DNA of 64,000 bases from Nitrospira sp. (GCA_015903945.1 JABMDL010000001.1:55725-119724); one strand, 5' to 3'. Positions 50,150 to 56,788 are shown, counted from the stretch's first letter. Translations and numbers: made by a program. The notes: generated from the letters alone by a model not told the origin.

Positions 50150-50185
50150 GTGGTGGTCCCAACGGGATTTGAACCCGTGTTTAAG
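50150..50185. repeat. att repeat, distal copy (tRNA-Glu 3' fragment)
   Basis: gtggtggtcccaacgggatttgaacccgtgtttaag, identical to 56753-56788. Confidence 0.95.
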
Positions 50186-50486
50186 ACTGCGACTTCGCCC
50201 TTTATTTTTGCGAGCTTCGATGATTTCACTCAGGTCAGAAAGGGGTACGACTAAAACACGAAGGCTTGAGAAGTACACTGGAGGAGACTAGTTCCTGTTC
50301 GGTAAACGTCGCAGCCTCTCCGAACGCCTCAAGCTGATAATAGAGATTGAAGCGGTAAAAATGGGACTGGTGCACCTCGGCATCTCCGACGCTCCCGTAA
50401 ACCTTGACACCTTCCCACGGTCGGCCTAGCCTTGCGACACAACTCTTTCTGCTCCTTGATGATCGTTAATGGGGAGGCAACCGAAG

Positions 50487-50714
50487 ATGAGAATTCTAGT
50501 GATCGTGGGGCTTTTCTTGTCGCTGTCGGGGTGTTTTACTCCTGAGTACAAAGTTGGGTATGCCAAAGCAGCCGTACTTGAGGAACAGGCAGCAATCCTC
50601 AAGCTATACCGTGCGTGCCTAGAAAAGTACCAAAGCAATCCCCCAGAGGCAAAAGTTAATTGTGAACACTACACGCAAGCATTGTACTCAGTGGATGTGC
50701 GTGGGATGAAATAA
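50487..50714 (+). CDS. Small lipoprotein
   Basis: MRILVIVGLFLSLSGCFTPEYK lipobox LSGC; 75 aa. Confidence 0.65.
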   Translation: MRILVIVGLFLSLSGCFTPEYKVGYAKAAVLEEQAAILKLYRACLEKYQSNPPEAKVNCEHYTQALYSVDVRGMK

Positions 50715-50803
50715 TGATTGATGAGACCGCTTTACTATGGTCTGATCAGATATGCCGAGCAGTATTTAATACTTAGACAGTTTCGGAGTATCTAGAGACT
50801 TAA

Positions 50804-51310
50804 GTGGAGCCCTACAAACTCAGACGGTGGAAATCTAAAGATGAGCCGGGGCCGGGACATTTCTACACATGCGCTCGACCAGGGCGTTCCAAGGGAAAGA
50901 ATGGCGCGATCCCAGACAATGTGGTGCGAAAGTGGGTGGACGGATTACCGAAATCTGACGGTGTGGTGATTGTTTCCCTTTTGGGTCGAAAGCCCGATGG
51001 TTTAAGCGAGTTCAGCTTCTATTCGTTCTATGGCGGGCTCGAGACTCAAGCTGACCGGCCAGGATGTCTTCATTTCAGCAAGTGGCTCGACAAGATGTAT
51101 CCTGATAGAGGATTTGAGCTGTTTGAACATCCGACGATCGATTTTCGGCCTGTGCCAACCCCAACACTGGATCAATTAGGCGCAACTATAGCACCATTCA
51201 TCGGTGCAGGCCGAATCATCGTCTTGGTCGATTCTGGCGGTGAGGGGCGGGTTCGCCAGGCGTGTATGCACCTGGCCTTAGTAGAGGAGACAGGCTCATA
51301 CGGAAAGTGA
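50804..51310 (+). CDS. Hypothetical protein with dual-specificity-phosphatase-like layout lacking the catalytic Cys
   Basis: TIDFRPVPTPTLDQLGATIAPFIGAGRIIVLVDSGGEGRVRQACMHLAL resembles the DxxxP...HCxxGxGRT order of DSPs, but VD replaces HC; GTG start. Confidence 0.5.
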   Translation: MEPYKLRRWKSKDEPGPGHFYTCARPGRSKGKNGAIPDNVVRKWVDGLPKSDGVVIVSLLGRKPDGLSEFSFYSFYGGLETQADRPGCLHFSKWLDKMYPDRGFELFEHPTIDFRPVPTPTLDQLGATIAPFIGAGRIIVLVDSGGEGRVRQACMHLALVEETGSYGK

Positions 51311-51388
51311 TTCTCGCGTCTGCATGATCGTGCAGCAACAGAGGTCCACCCTCCGTCGGTTGCAGCACATCAAGAAAGATTGGTCACG

Positions 51389-51688
51389 ATGACGGATTGG
51401 AAAAGGGTAGCCTGGATCAACGCAAAAGCACTTGAACATGGTGAGTATATCGCGGACTGGAGCGACCTCGAAGAGCCTGCCGGTAAGTGGCCGGAAGAGA
51501 TTCGCCTTGAAGAATTCAGGAAATGGCACGACTTGAACGGTGTCGATTTCAAGTTTTGGAAGGACGAATACAACAAGAATGGGGAACTGGTCGCAAAGTG
51601 GTATCGCACGAATCTGATGCCTGACGAAAAGGGCAAAGTAGGCAAGAAGGCTAAGCATTGGACGCTACGCGTTTTGAATGACGGCTGA
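51389..51688 (+). CDS. Hypothetical protein, 99 aa
   Basis: ORF with ATG start, charged composition; no family recognised. Confidence 0.45.
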   Translation: MTDWKRVAWINAKALEHGEYIADWSDLEEPAGKWPEEIRLEEFRKWHDLNGVDFKFWKDEYNKNGELVAKWYRTNLMPDEKGKVGKKAKHWTLRVLNDG

Positions 51689-51724
51689 AACAGATCGACT
51701 TTCGGGTACATCCTTCAAGCCGAA

Positions 51725-51850
51725 TTGCGCCGAAGTTGCGCCGGGCATTCCTATCAACTCGCCTCAAACCCATTAAAAACCGGCTACTTTGACGGGAGCA
51801 TTGCGCCAGAATTGCGCCGATTGTCGCTTAATAGTCTGGATTCGGCGCAA
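51725..51850. repeat. Iteron-like cluster of TTGCGCC heptamers
   Basis: TTGCGCC at 51725, 51736, 51801, 51812 (pairs at 11-bp period) and inverted GGCGCAA at 51844. Confidence 0.6.
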
Positions 51851-53477
51851 CTTCAGAATGAGTATCCTCCGGATACCATCGAGCCGCATTCGTCTTCCCC
51901 TTGGAGTTGATTCGCCGCTCTTTCTTTAGCTCTCCCAGTAGCTTTTGCACCTGATCACGACTAAGCTGAGGAAGCACCTGGAGCAAATCCTGTAGCCGAC
52001 TTCCTTCTTGCCTGAAGTTCACAATGTGCCGAAGAAGGAGCGCCTTGTTCGTCTCACGATCAAGTCCACGTCTGCGGGTGTAGACTCCCTTCTTCCCTAA
52101 AAACGCATACAACCGCCTGGAGAGAATGGGTTTAGCACCACGACCCCGCCCTGTGACCTCAACGATGGTCCGCTCTCTCAAGTAGCTCAGACGATCTTTT
52201 AAGCTTGGCGGAACCGGCTCATCCCGTTGCACCGCATCGAGAACGAGAAGGTCTTGCGTCGTAAACGGACCAAACCCTTCGGCCGTCACTTGTTGAAGGA
52301 ACATCAGAAAACGAGGATTCTGCACTTCGCCTTTGAGCGTAAGACTCACCTGATAGTCGTCAGTCCCGGCAAAGTCCGGCCGGGGCTTGCTTTCTTTAAT
52401 GCACTCTTCAAACATCCGATCTGCCCCTTGGCCGGAGCGTTCAACCAATCCGCATCGTGCAAACGCTTCGGCAATCCGACGATTACGCGGAGATTGACGC
52501 AAAAGAATATTCTCGGGCGTGATGCCGGGCGGAAACCCGCCGGGACTGACAATTTCGATCTTCTTGGGATACTGACGGACGAACACTGATCCATGGAGAC
52601 GATAATCACGATGACTCACGGCATTGAGGATGGCTTCTCGAACGACCTTTTCGTTAAAGGTCTGAATGTCCCAGACAAACAGCCCATCTTGGTAATGCTG
52701 CACGTCGTTCCGAAGATTGATGGTATTCCACAGCTCGTCGTCGAAGAGAAAGAATCCTTCCCTAAACTCCTTCCGCTGTTGAAACTGGAGGGACGCCTCG
52801 CTTGACCGATATTCGAACACTACTTCCGACTGCGCGAGGTGCCGGCCCAGCGCTTTCCCTGAACCGAAGAGAATCAGGGCCCCATAGGTGACCGCGTCAC
52901 CCACCAGCAATTCTGCATCCGTTAAGAGTTGGATATCCGTCAAGCTGTCCAAGGACTTATTGCCGGATTTTCTCTTCCACATCTCACGGAATCGGGCGAT
53001 TGCCACTGAGTCGAGATCGGCAAACGTAGCGTTCTTCGCAATTTCAGCCGAAAAATCTGGCCCGGATTCTTCGAAGATGCGCTTGAGTTGGTCAGGCGTC
53101 ATAGGGACGAGGCTTTCCCCGCTTCGCATCCAATAGGCCCCTTTGTAGTGAATCGGCATGCCGATAGGGCGTGACGGCACGTCAAAGACCACGACACGAC
53201 CATCAGGATGCTGAATGACTTGGGCATCCACGCGAAGACGCAGTCTATCGCTGACGCTTGCCTTCGTCTGCTCGAGATCTGGAAATGCCTGGCTCCCGAC
53301 AATCTTCCGTGGCAGCCTGTCGGAGATACCAAGAACAATCCTGCCGCCTCTTTCGTTGGCGATAGCCACGCAGTATTTGACGAGATCTTCAAATTCATAG
53401 GAGTTTTTCGCCTCCTTGAATTCCAAGTGCTCGCTCTCTTTGCTCTCCAGCAATACTTTCAGTTGTTCCTGCACCAT
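51828..53477 (-). CDS. Schlafen/AlbA_2-domain protein with RecG-like C-terminal HATPase_c_4-type region
   Basis: ESEHLEFKEAKNSYEFEDLVKYCVAIANERGGRIVLGISD; GAYWMRSGESLVPMTPDQLKRIF; REAILNAVSHRDYRLHGSVFVRQYPKKIEIVSPGGFPPGITPENILLRQSPRNRRIAEAFARCGLVERSGQGADRMFEEC. Confidence 0.88.
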   Translation of the reverse strand: MVQEQLKVLLESKESEHLEFKEAKNSYEFEDLVKYCVAIANERGGRIVLGISDRLPRKIVGSQAFPDLEQTKASVSDRLRLRVDAQVIQHPDGRVVVFDVPSRPIGMPIHYKGAYWMRSGESLVPMTPDQLKRIFEESGPDFSAEIAKNATFADLDSVAIARFREMWKRKSGNKSLDSLTDIQLLTDAELLVGDAVTYGALILFGSGKALGRHLAQSEVVFEYRSSEASLQFQQRKEFREGFFLFDDELWNTINLRNDVQHYQDGLFVWDIQTFNEKVVREAILNAVSHRDYRLHGSVFVRQYPKKIEIVSPGGFPPGITPENILLRQSPRNRRIAEAFARCGLVERSGQGADRMFEECIKESKPRPDFAGTDDYQVSLTLKGEVQNPRFLMFLQQVTAEGFGPFTTQDLLVLDAVQRDEPVPPSLKDRLSYLRERTIVEVTGRGRGAKPILSRRLYAFLGKKGVYTRRRGLDRETNKALLLRHIVNFRQEGSRLQDLLQVLPQLSRDQVQKLLGELKKERRINSKGKTNAARWYPEDTHSEVAPNPDY

Positions 53478-53878
53478 AGTCCTAACCAGTTTCTACAGTT
53501 CTGTCGGCTTCGCAACGCGGCGAGTATAGCGGATTCGGCTAGAACCCGCCTAGATTCATGCCTGACCGCCGTAGATGGTTTAAAGCCGAACGCCAGGGTA
53601 TATCGGCAATCCGATGCATAGCGTGCAATGTTACCCTCAGGTCCTTCCTGTTCAACCACACCGGCGTCGGGACATACGTGGGGAGCGTCTGGATCGAAGC
53701 GATAGACGATGATCAGAGGAGGGTCTTGGCAGCCAACACGAGAGCAGCCAGTCAGATACCATCCGGCTGGCGTTCATCGAGCGTGTCGAGCACTTCTTGC
53801 ACGACGGCTCGCGAAGACTGCAGATCCAGTGTATCGACGTCTGCTAGTTCGATCACGTCCATATAAAACCTGATTCGC

Positions 53879-54178
53879 TCAGCCACTGATCTTGCCGCTC
53901 AGCTTGGACGTGATCCCCTTGCGAAGTTCGACGACATACGAATCATCAGCCAAGATGGCCTCATCAATTTCCTGGCGGTGATCGTAGTAGTACGTCAGTG
54001 CGGCATAGACATCGGCTAAGGTCAATCCCTGGTTGGAGGCAATCTCATCGGCACTCAGCCCCATCCGCTCATGCCAGATGACGATGTGCTGGACGGTAAC
54101 GCGGTGTCCTGCGATCCTGGGTTTCCCGCCCGCCACCTCTTGTGAAATTGCGATATGGGGTGCCGTCAGAATGTCCAT
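53879..54178 (-). CDS. DUF433 domain antitoxin-like protein
   Basis: HIAISQEVAGGKPRIAGHRVTVQHIVIWHERMGLSADEIASNQGLTLADVYAALTYYYDHRQEID. Confidence 0.85.
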   Translation of the reverse strand: MDILTAPHIAISQEVAGGKPRIAGHRVTVQHIVIWHERMGLSADEIASNQGLTLADVYAALTYYYDHRQEIDEAILADDSYVVELRKGITSKLSGKISG

Positions 54179-54257
54179 GGTCCCCTCCCTCGAACGGATT
54201 TTTCTATTATAAGCGAGAGGGACATCCCCTTCCATGAGAAAGGGCCCCAAGACAACC

Positions 54258-54467
54258 CTATGACCGGCCCTTCTTCTCTCGCACGTCCGTTGTAGACATC
54301 CCCTTCAGCGCTCCCTTGAGCGACACGAGCGGGAGTTCCGGCACCAGGGTAATCACGCCTCCCTTTTCCACCACCTGCAAGCGCTGGCTTGGGGTGAGAT
54401 GGAGCTTGTCCCGAACTTCCTTCGGGATCACGACTTGGAACTTGGACGAGATCGTCGTTGTCGCCAT
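54258..54467 (-). CDS. AbrB/MazE/SpoVT-type DNA-binding protein
   Basis: ATTTISSKFQVVIPKEVRDKLHLTPSQRLQVVEKGGVITLVPE. Confidence 0.88.
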   Translation of the reverse strand: MATTTISSKFQVVIPKEVRDKLHLTPSQRLQVVEKGGVITLVPELPLVSLKGALKGMSTTDVREKKGRS

Positions 54468-54592
54468 ATCTATCTCCTTACGTTCATTGTATCGATTATA
54501 GCATCGCCTTACGACGATCCGGTCAACCCTTGCATTCATCATGCATTGTGACGTACAGTCCGTCATGCAGACTGACAGACGTTGGAGGCTCT

Positions 54593-54823
54593 ATGAAAAC
54601 GACCATGATGCAGTTCCGGGTGGCGGAGGACGAAAAGGCGTTGATCGAGAAATGCGCCAAGAAGCAAGGCATGACGGTCTCGGAGTACATTCGGGCGTCG
54701 CTCCTCATGGAGATGGTCATTGATGGGGAAGTGCAGGCGCTCAAGATCATTGGGCGCACCATCGGGATGAAAGCGATGGATGCCCTGAGCCGACGGCTCA
54801 AGACCAGTCCGGTGGTCGACTGA
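54593..54823 (+). CDS. Ribbon-helix-helix protein (DUF1778/MobC-like)
   Basis: MMQFRVAEDEKALIEKCAKKQGMTVSEYIRASLLMEMV. Confidence 0.75.
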   Translation: MKTTMMQFRVAEDEKALIEKCAKKQGMTVSEYIRASLLMEMVIDGEVQALKIIGRTIGMKAMDALSRRLKTSPVVD

Positions 54824-54874
54824 GGCAGGGGTGGGCGCGCCGGGCGGCGACAGCCGGCCGCGCGCCGCACTAAA

Positions 54875-54898
54875 GCCCCCGTATGGTAATACGGGGGC
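54875..54898. terminator. Perfect 10-bp stem hairpin
   Basis: gcccccgtat-ggta-atacgggggc between the RHH and zinc-ribbon genes. Confidence 0.55.
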
Positions 54899-54939
54899 GC
54901 TTATCGCAGGGGAGATCCAGCCAGACCTGAGCCGATCCT

Positions 54940-55377
54940 ATGAAAGAACAACCGGTTGCCCAGACAACTCATGCCCCAATAAGGACACCCGACAGCGGGG
55001 CCGGTCCGGATCGCAGCAGATTCCCCTATAAGGGCACCCTGCGGGAGCAACAGTGTTTGCGCTGTGATCACCGCTGGTGGCCCAGAACGCCGAGCCGGAC
55101 ATTGCGATGTCCCCGGTGTAAGAGTCCCTATTGGGATCGCCCGCGTCGAGCGGGCCAAGACGTTAAGAAGGATACCCGGATTGAAACAGGTGCACCCGTC
55201 GCAACGGGAAACGACAAACCCGCCAGGCCTCGCGAGGCCCTCTCTTTTGCCGCAGTACTGGAACTGCTGAAAACGCTCAAAACCACGGGACGGAGTTGGT
55301 CTGAATTGGGGCAAGAACTCCAACGCCACTCTGGGGTGCAGCTGGAGAAAGACCAGCTGAAGGCACTTCTCCGATAA
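54940..55377 (+). CDS. Zinc-ribbon protein
   Basis: CLRCDHRWWPRTPSRTLRCPRCKSPYWDRPRR; C-terminal helical domain. Confidence 0.6.
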   Translation: MKEQPVAQTTHAPIRTPDSGAGPDRSRFPYKGTLREQQCLRCDHRWWPRTPSRTLRCPRCKSPYWDRPRRAGQDVKKDTRIETGAPVATGNDKPARPREALSFAAVLELLKTLKTTGRSWSELGQELQRHSGVQLEKDQLKALLR

Positions 55378-55397
55378 TCACATAGAGAGAAAGTTCC

Positions 55398-55427
55398 CTG
55401 CCCCCCGCCACAAACCGGGGCAGGGAC
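55398..55427. terminator. 9-bp stem hairpin after zinc-ribbon gene
   Basis: ccctgcccc-N12-ggggcaggg, 21 bp past the stop at 55377. Confidence 0.5.
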
Positions 55428-55728
55428 TAATCCGAATCGCGGAGCAGGGCGCTCTGCAATGGGCACGCCTGGCAGTCTGCGAAAGGCAGGCCCGTTGCGC
55501 TGGTGCCCTGTTCCGCCGCCAATAAGCCGCTGGCGTGCTGACGCGAGCGCAGAGGGGGGCATGGGGGTGTCGCAAGACTCCCCCAATTGGGCGCCGTTCA
55601 TGGATGCTGAATTGATCGTACACGACACGGCATTCACACCTCAGGACAGGCTTGACGGGTGGCTGGTGCCTCCTCATACTGCCCCCCGGCGAAGTCGTAG
55701 TCGTGATCGGGACCGGAAAGGCACCGTC

Positions 55729-56775
55729 ATGACACGACCGTTAGTCGAACTGGTAGAGCAGTTTTGTCAGTACCAACTCAAACAGCGAGGGAAGACGGAA
55801 GGAGGGGTGCAGGCCTATCGCTGGGTGTTAGAGCAGTTCTTAGTATTCGGACGCGCGCGCTTCGGACGAGTGGCGAGACTCTCGGACTTGTCCAAGGCGG
55901 TGATTCAGGACTGGATGGATGAGATGGCCGCACGGGATCTCACACTCGGCACAATCCGAAGTCGGCAATCGACGCTGTCCAGCTTTTGTACCTGGCTGGT
56001 AAAACGCGAGGCATTACCAGCGAATCCCATCGCTGGAATGGATCGGCCTCCGCATCGGATCGAGCCTCCCAAGCAGGTGCCGACACCGGCCCTGATGGAT
56101 GCGCTGATTGAAGCGGCCAGGAAACGGCAGCGGCCTCGGGATGTGGCTATCTTCCTCATCCTGCGCTTCTCGGGCATGCGTCGAGAATCCGTCGCCACGC
56201 TCCAAGCCAGACACTTGGATGCACTGTGGGGCTTGCGCCGGGTGCGAGTCAAAGGGGGGCACACGAGAGACATTCCATTGCCCGAACCCGTCATGCGGTA
56301 TCTGCATGCGTATGTCGAGCAGTTCCTGACACCGAGTGTCGGCATGGTCTCTCCGGAGACACCGCTGTTCTGGTCCGTGTGGGGTCGCCGATCGATCGGC
56401 AAGCATCGGGCGCCGATGACCGGAAAAAACATCTGGCGGCTTTGCAAGCTGTACGGACGGATGATCGGCTATCCCATGTTGAAGCCGCATGATCTCCGGC
56501 ATGGGGTGGCGATGGAAGTGTTGGAGCAGCGCCACGACTTGGAACAAGTGCGCGCCTTGCTCGGCCACGCGCGCATCGATACGACGCAGATCTACACGAT
56601 GATTCGCCCGGCCCAACTGAAGCAAGCGGTCTCGTTTTACGAGGAACCGGCGAGGCACATGCTGGCGGATTTTCGGAGCAGCAGCGATTCCATGTTCGAG
56701 GAACATTCGCATGTTCCTCAAACACGGAGCCTAAAACATCAACAAAATCAAAGTGGTGGTCCCAACGGGATTTGA
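55729..56775 (+). CDS. Tyrosine recombinase/integrase
   Basis: SAM-like N-terminus; FLILRFSGMRRESVATLQ; HDLRHGVAMEVLEQRHDLEQVRALLGHARIDTTQIYTMI (HxxR...H...Y); start chosen at MTRPLVELVEQF. Confidence 0.93.
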   Translation: MTRPLVELVEQFCQYQLKQRGKTEGGVQAYRWVLEQFLVFGRARFGRVARLSDLSKAVIQDWMDEMAARDLTLGTIRSRQSTLSSFCTWLVKREALPANPIAGMDRPPHRIEPPKQVPTPALMDALIEAARKRQRPRDVAIFLILRFSGMRRESVATLQARHLDALWGLRRVRVKGGHTRDIPLPEPVMRYLHAYVEQFLTPSVGMVSPETPLFWSVWGRRSIGKHRAPMTGKNIWRLCKLYGRMIGYPMLKPHDLRHGVAMEVLEQRHDLEQVRALLGHARIDTTQIYTMIRPAQLKQAVSFYEEPARHMLADFRSSSDSMFEEHSHVPQTRSLKHQQNQSGGPNGI

Positions 56776-56788
56776 ACCCGTGTTTAAG
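56753..56788. repeat. att repeat, tRNA-proximal copy
   Basis: Identical 36 bp to 50150-50185. Confidence 0.95.

Follow-up and report, generated by a model that had tools for sequence, protein, structure and literature searches.

A probable satellite of filamentous phages integrated at tRNA-Glu(CTC) in Nitrospira

Boundaries and gene content of the element

The window, a stretch of 64,000 nucleotides from Nitrospira sp. (GCA_015903945.1 JABMDL010000001.1:55725-119724), contains an integrative element of 6639 bp, measured between the outer ends of two exact 36-bp repeats (Table 1). The source is a draft assembly (2.95 Mb, 116 contigs, 93.7% complete) whose relatives among the genomes collected are named Nitrospira. 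With up to three mismatches allowed, the repeats are the only two copies in the window, and the pair was obtained in none of 100 shuffles. The right-hand repeat forms the 3' end of a tRNA-Glu(CTC) gene, which is intact, and adjoins a tyrosine integrase with a SAM-like domain. The two repeats, the intact tRNA-Glu and the neighbouring recombinase had been noted in a first-pass annotation, which called the locus a compact, cargo-carrying, satellite-like integrative element in tRNA-Glu, and that description was borne out.

Table 1. Features of the element in the window.
Feature	Position	Strand	Evidence
Distal att repeat, displaced copy of the tRNA 3' end	50150..50185	+	exact 36-bp repeat
Cargo: small lipoprotein, weak EexN-like match	50469..50714	+	ORF; NCBIfam EexN 17 bits, cut-off 33
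Cargo ORF, 168 aa, no family	50804..51310	+	ORF, no domain match
Cargo ORF, 102 aa, no family	51380..51688	+	ORF, no domain match
Cargo: SLFN_AlbA_2 + HATPase_c_4 protein, 549 aa	51828..53477	-	Pfam 58 and 64 bits; PHROG 12156 'DNA helicase'
DUF433 antitoxin-like gene	53879..54178	-	Pfam 57 bits
AbrB/MazE-type regulator or antitoxin, present in many sister elements	54258..54467	-	Pfam 40 bits
NikA-like ribbon-helix-helix protein	54593..54823	+	Pfam NikA-like 45 bits
Zn145: zinc-ribbon + C-terminal helical domain, 145 aa	54940..55377	+	conserved family A3; low-confidence model
Conserved structured noncoding region, ~200 nt	55386..55592	+	covariance model R1, 189 bits
Hairpin H1	55392-55427	+	25-copy alignment
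Hairpin H2	55439-55516	+	25-copy alignment
Hairpin H3	55528-55549	+	25-copy alignment
Hairpin H4	55563-55584	+	25-copy alignment
Tyrosine integrase (core from 55729)	55600..56775	+	Phage_integrase 71 bits + SAM-like domain
Proximal att repeat	56753..56788	+	exact 36-bp repeat
Target gene tRNA-Glu(CTC), intact	56754..56831	-	ARAGORN; Rfam tRNA 59 bits

The presence/absence comparison with related genomes, as proposed in the first-pass annotation, revealed a precise empty site. In genome G009, the left flank of the window (to 50149) joins the intact tRNA gene directly, the junction being ~85% identical. The same join is found in G029 with an additional insertion of ~75 bp, and in G053, G043, G016 and G003 the tRNA-Glu gene lies ~290-390 bp from the start of the left-flank gene, a member of the deoxyhypusine-synthase family. 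Because precise empty sites exist, the finding which that annotation had named as contrary to its view, i.e. interior genes forming a conserved core with no empty-site allele, does not apply. An intact tRNA, a displaced fragment of it, an adjoining tyrosine integrase and an empty site in relatives, which together define a tRNA-integrated genomic island, were all found. The element is real and has been mobile over evolutionary time. In G009, a close relative, the empty site is bordered on its left by ~6.6 kb of different island DNA in which a decayed att copy was observed (L036:5637-12286), which suggests that older insertions have accreted at tRNA-Glu.

The left ~4.3 kb of the element represents exchangeable cargo. 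The G+C content of the cargo part is 53%, against 60% for the tRNA-proximal 2.2 kb, which equals the value of the flanks. The DUF5615 toxin partner of the DUF433 gene is cut to its first 10 codons (53857-53886) and is intact in L026. For the AlbA protein, assignment to a defence system was rejected: the PADLOC matches of 26-34 bits to pAgo-associated models were attributed to shared-domain similarity. The AlphaFold model of Zn145 has a mean pLDDT of 65 and is usable only in the C-terminal three-helix part, and a sequence search of the PDB returned nothing convincing for this protein. Profile searches with Pfam, PHROG and NCBIfam detected no replication, conjugation or phage structural protein inside the element, as the first-pass annotation had stated, and the capsid- or terminase-hijacking proteins of tailed-phage satellites (PICI, P4-like) were not matched either.

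The integrase is apparently intact. It does not have the stop codon used by close relatives, and 10 extra codons (56740-56775) run into the tRNA end. An overlap of integrase and tRNA as part of the mechanism was ruled out; the relatives checked stop before the tRNA.

Related elements in Nitrospira

The first-pass annotation had treated the element as a single case, which did not hold: the family of which it is a member is large and occupies several tRNA genes. The same tRNA-Glu site is occupied in many Nitrospira, with integrases of 72-93% protein identity and quite different cargo. Between the same two flanks, the elements of other Nitrospira measure 5.1-8.9 kb. In these, the distal att copy differs at up to 3 positions, mostly 1-3, and the window element may be younger than these sisters. 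The perfect identity of the repeats, from which the first-pass annotation had concluded on a recent or still possible excision, is weak evidence of recency only.

Most sister elements retain Zn145 together with a noncoding stretch of ~200 nt beside the integrase. Many also encode the AbrB/MazE-type protein, plus a NikA-like RHH or an HTH_17 protein. A search with Zn145 led to elements with the same noncoding stretch at tRNA-Arg(CCT), Val(CAC) and Lys(TTT), in which the integrase belongs to another lineage and an HTH_17 excisionase-like gene lies ahead of it. The window integrase is of a separate lineage, nearer to the XerC/XerD models.

tRNA-Glu(CTC) is a hotspot for several types of elements. 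Islands at this site without Zn145 and the noncoding part occur in L027, L028 and L030. In L027:11444-17264 and L028, the cargo is an RND efflux operon (AcrB-family pump) and the structured region described below is absent. It is likewise absent from two other islands in this tRNA gene of other Nitrospira, L032:315-7154 (6.8 kb) and L033:1759-17886 (16 kb). At L034:9645-9690 (G067 contig 2, 273 kb), 46 bp of the 3' part of tRNA-Glu are repeated exactly, with no tRNA gene or obvious integrase nearby.

Fold and covariation of the noncoding region

The conserved noncoding region between Zn145 and the integrase had been overlooked in the first-pass annotation, so that its account of the interior was right for the proteins and incomplete for the DNA. 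A four-hairpin structure was obtained as the consensus of individual folds. H2 is a rod of 78 nt and H4 reads GGGGGTGTCGnnAGACkCCCCC in most copies. The structure proposed automatically by RNAalifold was discarded, since H1 was mispaired in it through alignment shifts. Compared with shuffled sequences, folding gave a z-score of -4.6 as RNA (55380-55728) and of -2.5 as DNA (55388-55582).

In the alignment of 25 sequences, 84.5% of the cells pair, compared to 80.4% with shuffled partners and ~42% with slid partners. Changes on both sides of a pair were found in 71 cells, whereas 28 were expected from the shuffles. A wider set of 38 matches from other elements and prophages gave 119 double-change cells versus 40; this set was aligned to the model and is, hence, biased towards the model's pairing. 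Judged from the aligned copies, the covariation indicates selection on the region. No Rfam family covers it, and only the tRNA scored above the gathering threshold.

Association of the region with Zot and Rep genes

The covariance model R1 was built only from elements without Zot and without phage structural genes, and was run on 82 Nitrospira genomes and on a phylum-wide sample of 399. The Zot family (filamentous-phage assembly ATPase) was mapped independently in the same genomes. In the 82 Nitrospira genomes, an R1 match lies downstream of Zot on the same strand at 13 of 15 Zot loci, the distance being 1.57-1.75 kb for 12 of them and 3.8 kb for the remaining one. For a single Zot locus, the probability of such a match by chance is ~4e-4. 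Using strict filters, R1 was found in this position in the phylum sample at no fewer than 33 of the 51 Zot loci of the bacterial family to which Nitrospira belongs. All 62 genomes with R1, among the matches listed, belong to this one family, and the Zot loci of other bacterial families in the phylum sample have no R1 among the matches listed. Three Zot loci of the phylum sample have a long gap (~3.8 kb), two of them in genome G208. There, a group II intron maturase (RVT_1, GIIM) was observed between Zot and the region of an inovirus prophage (L182:5400-6911) and probably accounts for the longer spacing.

In the seven prophages that were followed over their whole length, the gene order is Rep_trans, pIII-like, Zot, the region, xis-integrase or serine recombinase, and tRNA; where Pfam was applied to the Rep genes, it assigned them to Rep_trans. 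In many further Zot-less elements, a Rep_trans gene (PF02486), often with a NikA-like gene ahead of it as a homolog of that in the window, ends at the region and is followed by xis, integrase and a tRNA gene (Gly, Arg, Val, Thr, Glu or Met). Repeats of the tRNA end suggest a size of ~4.4 and ~4.7 kb for two of these elements, and longer, possibly tandem arrangements for others. In a third kind of element, a G2P-type Rep immediately precedes the region, the integrase being ~4 kb away beside a NikA-like gene. The region thus follows the replication gene and not the integrase, and Zn145 occupies the very place that Rep_trans takes in the sister elements.

In a tree, the integrases of the Rep-type and the Zn-type elements cluster according to the tRNA targeted, and integrases of the Zot phages are interspersed among them (the placement of row L113, translated in a wrong frame, was disregarded), which argues that elements and phages exchange parts.

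Interpretation and alternative explanations

The region is best read as a putative inovirus intergenic region, i.e. an origin and/or packaging signal, which the window element has in common with filamentous phages by homology. Coat and assembly (Zot/pI) genes are absent from the element, as expected of a satellite, and so is the pI/Zot ATPase by which autonomous Inoviridae are recognized. Neither was a Rep found; an own replication gene, as in TLCphi, was not treated as essential to a satellite. We consider the window element to be probably an integrative satellite of filamentous phages (inoviruses) infecting Nitrospiraceae. It carries the folded control region of these phages without their replication and coat genes, and for this reason it probably spreads by riding in the particles of local filamentous phages. 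To the first-pass annotation the mode of mobilisation was not obvious, which was incomplete in that the ~200-nt structured region common to Zot-encoding filamentous prophages of the same family had not entered the consideration.

As the anatomy of the locus and the empty sites in relatives show, the tyrosine integrase inserts the element into tRNA-Glu(CTC) via the 36-bp core, and the same enzyme presumably excises it. The excised circle would carry the intergenic region. By homology of this region, a Zot-bearing helper would supply both a Rep acting on it and the coat and assembly proteins, after which single-stranded satellite DNA would leave in helper particles, become double-stranded in a new cell and reintegrate. 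Zn145, in the Rep slot, may recruit or modulate the replication of the helper. The size of the element falls within the range of inovirus genomes, 5.5-10.6 kb (PMC8491893). In M13, packaging starts at a hairpin signal recognized by the proteins of the top cap. With a helper as the source of the proteins, a genome of 221 nt that has an origin and this signal is packaged as well (PMC10480500), which shows that a short region can be enough in principle.

Three other explanations were weighed. The element could be an integrative mobilisable element which is moved by a conjugative plasmid or ICE through its NikA-like protein and an oriT that escaped recognition and perhaps lies within the hairpins. 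The NikA-like RHH protein does pass the Pfam cut-off and has weak matches to plasmid mobilisation proteins, and hairpins are typical of oriT too. However, the Pfam search found no relaxase in the element, searches for three relaxase families (PF03432, PF08751, PF03389) found none in the host assembly, several sisters with the region lack a detectable NikA and have an HTH_17 protein upstream of Zn145 instead, and it is with Zot phages and Rep genes that the region is associated; we regard this explanation as unlikely. About as improbable is an inovirus prophage in decay or a rolling-circle element that is not packaged, in which the region would be only a replication origin, either a relic or intracellular, and movement would be rare, by transformation or generalised transfer. 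The host assembly, at its 93.7% completeness, contains no Zot and no Rep_trans, hence no resident helper, and the lack of Rep and coat genes in the element would fit decay as well. Yet the copy in the window scores 189 bits and folds strongly, the covariation indicates selection, and the arrangement of Zn145 and region is common to many elements, which is unexpected under random decay.

The region might also be a leader RNA or promoter controlling recombinase expression, which small elements without kinship would have come to share as their integrase modules recombined. At most loci it does lie directly upstream of xis-int or int. Its conservation in elements at tRNA-Glu(CTC), Arg(CCT), Val(CAC) and Lys(TTT) despite differing integrases, its conservation across unrelated tyrosine and serine recombinases, the latter in inoviruses that retain the region, and its place behind Rep and far from the integrase in G2P-type elements argue that it is not merely an integrase leader, and we consider this explanation very unlikely.

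The satellite reading is thus preferred. Against it count the lack of a resident helper in the host assembly, the lack of a recognisable Rep in the element and the presence of the NikA-like protein. Scans of viral contigs with the integrase and two hairpin motifs, too, gave no match, and no circular or particle form was found in them; most of the genomes compared are metagenome-assembled. A broader proposal, towards which we are evenly balanced, is that Nitrospiraceae hold an undescribed superfamily of integrase-bearing filamentous-phage satellites, one branch of which would have given up Rep and acquired dependence on a helper for replication and packaging, with Zn145 instead, the particles serving as general cargo vehicles among nitrifiers. 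If so, inovirus particles would carry toxin-antitoxin modules, membrane transporters and Schlafen-like proteins among these bacteria.

Filamentous-phage satellites are known from very few cases. Here, a conserved and searchable structured signature ties dozens of small islands to the filamentous prophages of one family. An island whose mobility was obscure thereby becomes one half of a helper-satellite pair that can be tested, in bacteria that are central to nitrification and in which gene transfer is poorly understood. The same approach, in which the conserved noncoding region of an orphan island is sought in phages, could resolve other islands.

Comparison with known systems

A literature search for phrases on inovirus satellites found no paper using them, and Nitrospira is absent from the main text of a large inovirus survey (PMC6813254); neither result proves absence from the literature.

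RS1 and TLCphi are satellites of filamentous vibriophages (PMC4246890; PMC11389934). Like the window element, they are small integrated elements without morphogenesis genes which use the particles of a helper filamentous phage, a use that is presumed for the window element. RS1 relies on the host XerCD at dif and has its own replication gene. TLCphi also uses XerCD of the host at dif and has its own replication gene (PMC4246890), whereas the window element targets a tRNA gene with a tyrosine integrase of its own and lacks Rep. The Shewanella plasmid pDolos is reported to be a satellite of an inovirus (Schmid et al. 2024, as cited in PMC13230959); according to that citation, it resembles the window element as a cargo element proposed to exploit an inovirus, but is an autonomous plasmid and not integrative.

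With integrative mobilisable and oriT-only integrative elements, the window element shares an integrase, a tRNA site, cargo and a NikA-like protein; in contrast to them, it has no relaxase, and no oriT was recognised from its sequence. The Zot-less elements of Nitrospiraceae with Rep_trans (e.g. L191, L235, L261, L264) share the region, the integrase and the tRNA, and in some cases the NikA-like gene, but keep a Rep gene where the window element has Zn145. The Zot-encoding, tRNA-integrated inovirus prophages of Nitrospiraceae have Rep_trans, pIII-like and Zot genes, which the window element lacks, and end in the same structured region and the same recombinase-tRNA arrangement.
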